Positions 18,753-55,670 of a DNA stretch of 59,808 nt are shown here, in pieces. The position numbers and the translations under genes are program-made. The DNA comes from a virus. The stretch lies in IMG/VR virus record IMGVR_UViG_3300033150_001833, positions 1 to 59,808 of that record; one strand, 5' to 3'. The first letter of the stretch is position 1. Each line of letters starts with the position of its first letter. Below the pieces are notes generated by a model. That model was given only the letters and a program-made list of their open reading frames with translations. It was not told the DNA's origin and did not search any database.

Positions 18753-19096
18753 TTGTGAATGACTTAAATTTGGTAATAGAAGCTTTGGTTGAATTCAAAG
18801 AACAAACCGATGCCGGCAACGCTAATATTGATGGATGTCCTTTTAGTCTTATGGAAAACTTTACCAAAAGTGGTTATGTAGGTCCGTTCTGGAAGTGCAG
18901 CGTATGTAGATTTCTGTTCCCAGAAATCAGAACAAATAATATTTATGCCACAGAGGGGTGCCCGTGTCAGAAATTGGGTTGTGATTATGTTAGAAACATT
19001 GTCTATGAGTTTCTATATGACATTGATATTCTTCATCAATATCAGATTGCTTGTTCAGATAATGTTGAGCACACAAAAACCGGTTGCCTTTCATAA
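18749..19096 (+). CDS. cysteine-rich hypothetical protein
   Basis: A 115-residue protein; ATG overlaps the previous stop (ATGA-type coupling). It has CSVCRFLFPEIRT and CPCQKLGCDYVRNIVYEF, a possible zinc site. It is the last rightward gene before the strand switch, and its last ~107 bases overlap a leftward gene ending at 18990. Function unknown. Confidence 0.5.
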   Translation: MIVNDLNLVIEALVEFKEQTDAGNANIDGCPFSLMENFTKSGYVGPFWKCSVCRFLFPEIRTNNIYATEGCPCQKLGCDYVRNIVYEFLYDIDILHQYQIACSDNVEHTKTGCLS

Positions 19097-19292
19097 CCTG
19101 ATTTTTACATCCTGGAACACTGCATATTTTACGGGTTTTTTTATGATCGTGGTATCTTAATTTAATTTCATTGTATCGACATTCAATGCAACAATATTTT
19201 TGATTGCTCTGCTTGGGAATAAAGATTGTATCGCAATTTCTAGCTGCGCATATTTTCGATGTTGGAGACATTTTGTTATCCTTTATTTCCAT
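18990..19292 (-). CDS. zinc-finger protein
   Basis: A 100-residue basic protein with CAARNCDTIFIPKQSNQKYC followed by C (CxxxxC...CCxxxC) and a second cluster ICSVPGCKNQVM ... LCAQHYL; such paired clusters are typical of small phage zinc-finger or HNH-related proteins. The 3' third overlaps the convergent gene ending at 19096. It starts 10 bases inside the next upstream minus-strand gene. Confidence 0.5.
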   Translation of the reverse strand: MEIKDNKMSPTSKICAARNCDTIFIPKQSNQKYCCIECRYNEIKLRYHDHKKTRKICSVPGCKNQVMKGNRFLCAQHYLNKQSDIDEEYQCHIETHRQCF

Positions 19293-19606
19293 GGTGATTT
19301 TCTTTTTTCAAACTTGGGACATTGATAGCACTTCATATCTTCACCACCATGTTTGGTTAATGCAGCCTTACTCAGGCAATCATGATAGTGAATGCACAAT
19401 TCTGATGCATAAATCCTGGCTTTAGTATTTAGCGCTACACTCGTTATTTTTGTTTTTTTGCGTGTTAATTGATGATTCTGCCTTCTTAATTCTGCGCATT
19501 TAATACATCGACCGAACTTTTTATATCGCAAACTTTTGCCGGTATTTTTATAATCGTGACCATGAACACATAACTTACCCAAATATTTATTGTCATCAAT
19601 TTTCAT
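19283..19606 (-). CDS. zinc-binding, HNH-like small protein
   Basis: A 107-residue basic protein. LCVHGHDYKNTGKSLRYKK and CIKCAELRR match the C.HGH....G...R.....C..C pattern of short HNH-associated zinc ribbons; a second cluster (ELCIHYHDCL, KCYQCPKF) follows. No clear HNH catalytic triad is seen, so it could be a DNA-binding accessory. Starts just inside the preceding gene's end. Confidence 0.45.
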   Translation of the reverse strand: MKIDDNKYLGKLCVHGHDYKNTGKSLRYKKFGRCIKCAELRRQNHQLTRKKTKITSVALNTKARIYASELCIHYHDCLSKAALTKHGGEDMKCYQCPKFEKRKSPWK

Positions 19607-19958: not shown

Positions 19959-21448
19959 ATTATCATCTCCTTTTCGGCCATTCAAAATATGTTGCCGGGC
20001 ACCCTGATGGAGGTAGTGCCGGCGAGCATAATATTAATGTTTCGCGGCTTCTGGTAACTGCAACATAAAACATTCTACGTATTGCATCTTGATTATTTTT
20101 TTCCATATATGCCGCCCTGCTAAGATCCGGAAATACAACAACACAGTCTGCCTCTCCCCCTTTCACCGAATGGACAGTTCCAATAATAAGTTTCGGTTTT
20201 TTGCGCAAAGTATCAGCTCCACAATATTTAAGAACAGACATAGGATAATTTAAACTATTCATCCTGGATTTTACAACGTTATTTTTAAGCCATTGTATAT
20301 CTCTGCTTAATGCAGCATTAACAGCAGCTGGCGATAATATATCATTAAGAACTTCACGAGTAGTGTGAAGACCCATTGCATGTTCATCAACCGCCTTTTC
20401 CAAAACTGCTAAAGCTTTCTTTCCTTTTTTCTTGATCAGGCCGGTTTCTCCAACTTTAATAAACCTGGCCCACTTTAAAAATTGCGGAACACTCCAATAA
20501 GCATCATCAGATTTATCAAGAAAATTTATATCATATCTTTGCAATCGATATGGATTATGAAATGGGATACCCTTAGCTCGTAATAAGTGCTTTAACGGTT
20601 CAAGCATATAGGAACATGATGCCAAAAACATAACATTTTTATCTTGTTTTATATATTGAAGAGCAAGCTCCAAAACTCCATCTGGAGCTTTGAAATTATC
20701 ATTATGATAAATAACTTCACCAGGAACCGGATCAAGATTATCATCCATGCGAGCCCTATATTCTTTTGGTTCCCTGATAGTAACTTTTGAGATTATTTTA
20801 TTGGCAACCTTTAAAACCGTTTCTGGAACTCTCCAACTTTGTTTTAATACCGTTTTAAATTCTTTTGATATGGGCGGATTAATAAGAGATTTAACATCAG
20901 CGCCTATCCATTCATATAATGTTTGATCATCATCAGCGCACATAACAAACCACTCCATCGCTGCGCCCCATGATCTGATCAGTTTAAATTGCACTGGTGT
21001 GAAGTCTTGGGCTTCATCTAAAAACATAACAGCAGGATTATTAGGAGCAATTGGAAACTCCTCGATTGCATTTTCAATTAAATCTTCAAAATCAACAACA
21101 TTAAGTTCTTTTTTGAATCCATCCCATGCTTTCTTAAAACTTCTAAGGCTAACCCTCCATGTACTTTCTGGAATCATCTTGGCTTTCAAAATCTGGATTT
21201 CAGACAAAACTTTATCACCGTTATTTTGTGGATTAAAACAATCATCATATTCATCTGCTGACTTCCCGCTCCCTGATAATAACCAACGAGGATTTTCAGT
21301 ATTCCATTCTTTAATATGCTTAATTGCAAGGTCCGGCTGGCCAAACGCTCGATAACATAAACTATGAAGAGTGCCTACGTTTCGTTCATCAACCTTAATA
21401 TCCCTAGAAGCAATTTCTTTGGCCGCTGCCCTGGTAAATGATGCAACC

Positions 21449-21464
21449 ATAACTTTATAACTTT
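21449..21464 (-). repeat. 8-bp tandem duplication causing a frameshift in the helicase
   Basis: On the plus strand ATAACTTT occurs twice in direct succession. Deleting one copy makes GHDKV-MVASFTRAAAKEI continuous; with both copies the frame runs to a stop at 21375. Confidence 0.85.
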
Positions 21465-21530
21465 ATCATGACCGTATTTTTCAATTGCTCGGGGAACATG
21501 CCGGCGGGCTAGTACTCGGGTTTTGCCTGT

Positions 21531-21950
21531 GTTATGAACAATGAATTCATTAGCTACATAATTATGATACGGAGAAGCCATCGCCACAGCAAAGGTCGGT
21601 CCTTTACCAACATACTCAATGCGTTTAATGGTATCTTTAGCAGGAAAAACACATCCATCATAAACATTAACAACACTCCCGGGTTTTAAATTGGCTAACT
21701 CAACAAATTCACCCGGAGTTTTAAATGGATGATCTATCGTTGTTGTTATTGATCTGCCGGATATTGTAGTTGTTTTATATAATTTTTGAATTTTGCTGTA
21801 TGAAATATATAAAATATCATGGGGTCCGATTAACTCACCCTGCAATGATAATAACTGTTTAGGAATAGTCATACAGTTAATTTTAAAGTATGCCATTTCT
21901 ATTGTATATGGTCTTCCGCTGATATTTAAAATAGTATCAACAGCCAAACA
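21531..21950 (-). other. mini-intein (140 residues) inserted in the Walker A motif of the helicase
   Basis: The insert begins with Cys12 (CLAVDTILNISGRPYTIE) and ends YHNYVANEFIVHN, followed by Thr as the first C-extein residue, so splicing would restore GPPG-TGKT. Block B is visible as TTTIDHPFKT (T..HPF), and the C-terminal block F/G as YHNYVANEFIVHN. At about 140 residues there is no room for a homing endonuclease; it is a minimal splicing domain. P-loop insertion is a known intein habit in phage and cellular ATPases. Confidence 0.9.
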
Positions 21951-21994
21951 TCCTGGCGGACCGAATATACGGTATTCTTTCATAATGCTTCAAC

Positions 21995-22825: not shown

Positions 22826-23178
22826 TTAAAATAAAATATCCATTACATCAGCGGCGCTCCTGGTGGTATGCTTGTGATCTAAGGAAGTAATTTCTTTCCT
22901 CATAGCAAAAACAACATCACCAAAAGCTTCTATTATTGTTTCTGCAGTAGTGCTATCTGCCGCCATTGCCATAGCACGCCACTTAATAAATTTTTCGACT
23001 ACATCGTCAGAAGCAATAACCATCATATTCAATCCGATTCTTTGCAATTTAATAGCCATTGCTTTCACTTTCCCCTGATTTAATTTCGAGGACCCTGATT
23101 TAATTTCGAGGATGCAAGCATGTCCATAACCACACCAATAAACTCTGAATACAGCTCTACCTTTTTAGTCTGTGTCAT
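22826..23178 (-). pseudogene. hypothetical helical protein, frameshifted by a 20-bp tandem duplication
   Basis: A frame from 23178 (TQTKKVELYSEFIGVVMDML) ends early at 23080, and a second frame to 22826 begins within the same sequence. Removing one copy of the exact 20-bp repeat at 23073-23112 fuses them as ASSKLNQGKVKAMAIKLQRI into one protein of about 110 residues. Without the repair only the shorter part from an internal ATG (MKAMAIKLQRIGLNMMVIAS) would be made. Function unknown. Confidence 0.6.
23073..23112 (-). repeat. 20-bp exact tandem duplication (frameshifting)
   Basis: CCCTGATTTAATTTCGAGGA is present twice back to back. Its length, not a multiple of three, breaks the gene it lies in; one copy would restore the frame. 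Confidence 0.92.
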
Positions 23179-53967: not shown

Positions 53968-54097
53968 TATCCAAGATGTCTATCCAAGATATCTATCCAA
54001 GATATCTATCCAAGATATCTATCCAAGATATCTATCCAAGATATCTATCCAAGATGTCTATCCAAGATGTCTATCCAAGATGTCTATCCAAGATGTC
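53968..54097 (+). repeat. 10 tandem copies of a 13-bp repeat TATCCAAGAT(A/G)TC
   Basis: Ten direct, head-to-tail copies (units 1, 7-10 end GTC; units 2-6 end ATC). As 13 is not a multiple of three, any reading frame through it changes every copy, so this is a DNA element, not a gene. Iteron arrays of this kind are binding sites for replication initiators or regulators. It lies 270 bases upstream of the HTH gene start. Confidence 0.85.
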
Positions 54098-55360: not shown

Positions 55361-55670
55361 CCTTATTAGTAATGATTACTATTAGCGTTTACGGCTTTCA
55401 GTGCACCTGTCACTATTTGTTATACTAATAGTCATACTATTAGTCATACCGTCCGTCATACCGTCCGTCATACCATTTGTCATACCATTAGTCATACCGT
55501 CTGTCATACTATTTATCATACCGTTTTGTCATACTATCTATCATACCATTTTGTCATACCATTTTGTCATACCATTTTGTCATACTATTTATCATACCAT
55601 TAGTGGTGACGGCCTGTTATATCTGATATCGGGTTTTCCGATAACCTTATTAGTAATGGTTACTATTAGC
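55361..55670. repeat. degenerate 12-13-bp tandem repeats flanked by 26-bp direct repeats
   Basis: Fourteen units built on (T/A/C)(G/A)TCATAC(C/T) with 12-13-bp spacing occupy 55425-55603. On each side is CCTTATTAGTAATG(A/G)TTACTA-TTAGC (55361-55386 and 55645-55670, one mismatch), itself an inverted repeat around AGTAAT. No plausible gene; the Ile/Val-rich frame through it is repeat-driven. Being directly upstream of the terminase genes, it is a candidate pac/cos or regulatory site. Confidence 0.75.

Follow-up and report, generated by a model that had tools for sequence, protein, structure and literature searches.

The Walker A loop of a UvrD-like helicase (phrog_1967) from a tailed phage is very probably interrupted by a class 1-type mini-intein, which would belong to a P-loop-inserting, HNH-associated family and would itself have lost its endonuclease; the reading frame of the helicase itself is broken. 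The phage is represented by a 59.8-kb virus record (the window, i.e., the whole stretch of DNA that was analysed), which includes tape measure, tail, terminase, integrase, primase and helicase genes. On its minus strand, an ORF of 202 amino acids (21983-21375) reads MKEYRIFGPPG/CLAVDT...NEFIVHN/TGKTRVLARRHVPRAIEKYGHDKV, where slashes mark the ends of the insert. The insert comprises exactly 140 codons, from 21950 down to 21531, and is located precisely between GPPG and TGKT (Table 1).

Table 1. Features of the interrupted helicase gene in the window
Feature	Position	Strand	Basis
N-extein MKEYRIFGPPG, helicase start and first half of Walker A	21951..21983	(-)	ORF; 10/11 residues identical to MKEYRIYGPPG of L002
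Mini-intein, 140 aa, Cys1 to His139-Asn140	21531..21950	(-)	ORF, profiles, PDB matches, structure
Block B TxxH (T71-I-D-H74)	21729..21740	(-)	Thr/Ser71 and His74 kept in 53/53 aligned inteins
Block F position F:4, Ala121 replacing Asp	21588..21590	(-)	alignment, motif windows
Block G, His139 (penultimate) and Asn140 (last residue)	21531..21536	(-)	invariant in alignment
+1 Thr, second nucleophile, first residue of Walker A TGKT	21528..21530	(-)	ORF, comparison with L002
Start of C-extein, TGKTRVLARRHVPRAIEKYGHDKV, followed by a tail that runs out of frame to a stop	21375..21530	(-)	ORF, comparison with L002
Perfect 8-bp tandem duplication ATAACTTT x2 (+ strand letters), breaks helicase frame	21449..21464	.	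sequence; extra 8 bases absent in L002
Remainder of UvrD-like helicase from motif Ia on (495 aa), other frame	19963..21450	(-)	Pfam/PHROG, alignment

The host protein is UvrD-like, as the preliminary description had proposed: the downstream ORF (21450-19963) matches Pfam UvrD-helicase (E 1.4e-12), UvrD_C_2 (E 9e-11) and phrog_1967 (E 3e-49). According to Pfam, PHROG and alignment, the features of a UvrD-like SF1 helicase are present, i.e., Walker A, motif Ia, DEAQD and the UvrD C-terminal motifs, divided over two ORFs in two frames. Following the helicase on the minus strand (18990-19606) are two small Cys-rich ORFs with marginal similarity to NinG-like/HNH profiles; a free-standing homing endonuclease beside the helicase gene was rejected, as these ORFs (19606-18990) gave marginal matches only. 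Elsewhere, the window has arrays of 12-13-bp direct tandem repeats at 53979-54095 and 55443-55570 (TCTATCCAAGATA/G; TCATACCATTTTG and relatives), and a perfect 20-bp tandem duplication (CCCTGATTTAATTTCGAGGA) at 23073-23112.

The insert is identified as an intein by an empty site, profile and PDB matches, an intein at the same site in another virus, and the predicted fold. The helicase of the contig L002, which is 66% identical to that of the window, has MKEYRIYGPPGTGKTRVLARRHIPRAVEKYGPDKVMVTSFTR uninterrupted, and this is the exact empty site (MKEYRIYGPPG/TGKT). The loop is likewise uninterrupted in all of 80 distant phage relatives, as GPPGTGKT in 79 and as GPPGCGKT in one. The insert matches Pfam Intein_splicing with E 1.2e-4, under the gathering cut-off, and NCBIfam intein_Nterm (E 2.4e-4) and intein_Cterm (E 0.043), both slightly under their cut-offs; among PDB intein chains, the best match by sequence has E 2.8e-5. 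The profile matches are weak yet specific. Used alone as query, the window intein gave 12 pattern matches and no relatives in viral contigs, and weak partial matches only in phage records. AlphaFold2 run on an alignment of 53 inteins predicted a HINT fold for it (pLDDT 97.4, pTM 0.90; a first model from 5 sequences was poor, with pLDDT 62.8), and Foldseek placed the Npu DnaB and Mtu RecA inteins at the top, with TM 0.89-0.90, the Mtu RecA intein at 0.90.

A DNA pattern for the junction at the intein C-terminus (xVHN/TGKT) turned up inteins abutting TGKT in other viruses; matches in L094, L096, L097, L100, L103, L105, L106, L112 and L113 were due to chance. L104 (IMGVR_UViG_3300025697_000110) resembles the window in that intein 1 of its UvrD-like helicase is a mini-intein (168 aa) at GPPG/TGKT in a phrog_1967 host protein; this intein is 34% identical to that of the window, and the L104 extein is 32% identical to the window helicase. 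L104 differs from the window in having the Asp at F:4, an intact helicase frame and a second intein at DDDQ/CLYEW. In the L104 gene (6020-8911), which encodes a UvrD-like phage helicase, the first intein thus lies in Walker A (GPPG/TGKT), and the second, of about 270 aa, in motif III (DDDQ/CLYEW). The preliminary description had claimed a mini-intein of 140 residues at GPPG/TGKT. Its boundaries and codon count are exact, and the intein profile and PDB matches, the exact empty site, the homologous inteins and the predicted HINT fold bear out its nature; the search that it proposed for intein blocks found A, B, F (without its Asp) and G.

The residues for splicing are present with one exception. 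The window intein has Cys1, T71/H74, His129/Asn130, His139, Asn140 and a +1 Thr. Thus, of the features of class 1 inteins, Cys/Ser at position 1, TxxH, and His-Asn followed by Thr at +1 were found; the Asp at F:4, which is typical and not a strict requirement, was not. Among the 53 aligned inteins, Ala at F:4 occurs only in that of the window, and Asp occupies this position in the 52 others (52/52); in block F/G windows from fetched loci, Asp is present in 153/156 and missing in 3/156. Some of the relatives had been collected with block F/G motifs, in which the F:4 residue plays no part. The window intein also departs from the consensus in two (G53K and D121A) of the twelve columns with the highest conservation, and is one of four rows with two such departures. 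According to reviews, the block-F Asp helps to activate both Cys1 and the +1 nucleophile (PMC4031507, PMC10663303); F:4 is described as less conserved than the other catalytic positions, with Asp as the most frequent residue, followed by Cys and then Trp (PMC4031507). Because a residue found in 52/52 relatives is replaced by Ala121, the splicing competence of the window intein appears doubtful, perhaps an even chance. It is rather unlikely that an intein with Ala at F:4 still splices in the helicase P-loop, or has become a C-terminal-cleaving element there, with compensation for the missing Asp. The window intein is a natural test of how far splicing needs that residue.

The nearest inteins by alignment (33-44% identity) are located in P-loops, and in a quick tree the window intein clusters with those of L110, L134, L104 and L093 (SH-aLRT 91), each of which is a P-loop intein. 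Those of L093 and L110 have weak HNH_3 matches in the stretch that separates block B from block F, which the inteins of the window and L104 lack; HNH regions occur in related P-loop inteins with lengths of 283-290 aa. The window intein is therefore likely to be an endonuclease-less descendant of HNH-bearing P-loop inteins. This agrees with the earlier claim that no homing endonuclease is present, since 140 amino acids leave no room for one and the HNH_3 region of L093 and L110 is missing. With the empty-site, same-site and HNH-bearing P-loop relatives at hand, the loss of the endonuclease becomes traceable. The same P-loop position, before [STC]GK[ST] or SAKT, holds inteins in L141, L145, L150, L155, L159, L187 and L190; further examples are L115, L116, L127, L131, L160 and L174. 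The ATPases concerned in this viral set apparently differ and most of the inteins fall in one clade, which suggests lineage-wide targeting of P-loops.

By the canonical route, Cys1 would attack the Gly-Cys bond, the +1 Thr (i.e., the Walker A Thr) would take over the N-extein, and Asn140 would cyclise, rejoining GPPG to TGKT and thereby creating the ATP site. Given the position of the intein in the P-loop, splicing would be required for ATP binding and ATPase activity of the helicase; a P-loop intein in RadA has been reported to disrupt ATPase activity (PMC6195587). The most likely product of the window copy would be a truncated peptide of P-loop and intein, which may splice slowly or be prone to cleavage; a full helicase would then not be made.

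About 25 codons past the intein, after TGKT...GHDKV, the helicase frame is broken, and motif Ia onward is shifted to another frame. The preliminary description had hinted at a frame in need of restoring, and the intein ORF does leave the helicase frame, where 8 bp are perfectly duplicated in tandem. Perfect 8-mer tandem repeats also arise by chance in shuffled windows; this one gains its meaning solely from its place at the exact point of the frame break and from its absence in relatives, the aligned helicases of L002, Riverbug and MMP7 having no extra residues at the site. As the duplication breaks the frame after the intein, the sequence as given would encode no complete helicase even if the intein were spliced out. 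The 495-aa remainder is free of any other stop or frame break; being still open, it indicates that the break may be a recent loss of function, a minority variant or an assembly error, rather than old decay. Looking for further contigs of this virus that span the break yielded none, and a search with the window and L002 helicases recovered L002 alone. The break cautions against inferring function from the intein alone.

Several other readings can be set against a mini-intein in a broken helicase gene. The insert could be a chance extension of an ORF or some other inserted domain, given that the curated profile cut-offs were not reached; however, this has a negligible probability, as it is refuted by the exact empty site, the homologous inteins and the HINT fold. 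There is an appreciable chance, though well short of even, that the living virus has an intact helicase gene: the 8-bp duplication would then belong to a minority variant or stem from misassembly, and splicing would proceed normally despite Ala at F:4, giving an active helicase. The remainder is otherwise open over 495 codons with SF1 motifs, other large ORFs examined have no obvious frame break, and the lower conservation described for F:4 (PMC4031507) fits; yet the given sequence is broken at the duplication, the 52/52 aligned relatives have the Asp, and the search for a second contig gave none.

Bridging of the frames by ribosomal frameshifting, or a restart of translation from the ATG at 21450 that would make the helicase in two pieces, is most improbable: the break has no classical slippery heptamer, the ATG has no Shine-Dalgarno ahead of it, a product starting there would be without Walker A, and homologues read straight through, although an ATG does stand at the junction and the -1 frame leads into the helicase. 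The preliminary description had also raised a conditional switch. In a switch of the kind proposed for MsmDnaBi1, the intein would block helicase activity, and a redox cue or some other signal would have to permit splicing first. The P-loop logic is the same, Cys1 is accompanied by two more Cys inside the intein, and MsmDnaBi1 provides a precedent (PMC6195587). The broken frame and the Ala at the block-F Asp position argue against a working switch, the sequence has no sign of sensing, and insertion in the P-loop is what this intein family normally does. Thus, a switch is possible in general and unsupported, indeed improbable, for the window copy.

The mini-intein reading adds the window copy, in a phage UvrD-like helicase, to the P-loop inteins already known in helicases; inteins in helicases and terminases had been called known at the outset, and P-loop inteins are published for DnaB, PcrA and UvrD (PMC5874633) and are common in terminases of mycobacteriophages (PMC5050341). 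Mycobacterium smegmatis DnaBi1, a P-loop mini-intein with redox-dependent splicing (PMC6195587; PDB 6bs8), is likewise endonuclease-less and in a helicase Walker A, its +1 residue is also a P-loop residue, and both it and the predicted window intein have the HINT fold (TM 0.71-0.76). However, DnaBi1 is a class 3 intein in DnaB with a +1 Ser, whereas the window intein has Cys1 and Ala at F:4 and lies at G/TGKT of a UvrD-like helicase. The mycobacteriophage TerL1-a/b (PMC5050341) and UvrD/PcrA inteins (PMC5874633) share P-loop insertion in phage or repair ATPases; TerL1-a is described between Lys and Thr, whereas the window insertion precedes TGKT. SPO1-like phages, too, have an intein in a UvrD-like helicase, but at a different site (PMC3868849): that of SPO1/CampHawk spans Cys292-Asn576 and is larger than the window intein. 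The Mtu RecA and Npu DnaB inteins (PDB 3igd, 4o1r) share the HINT splicing fold (TM about 0.9), but are 19-25% identical to the window intein and reside in other host proteins.
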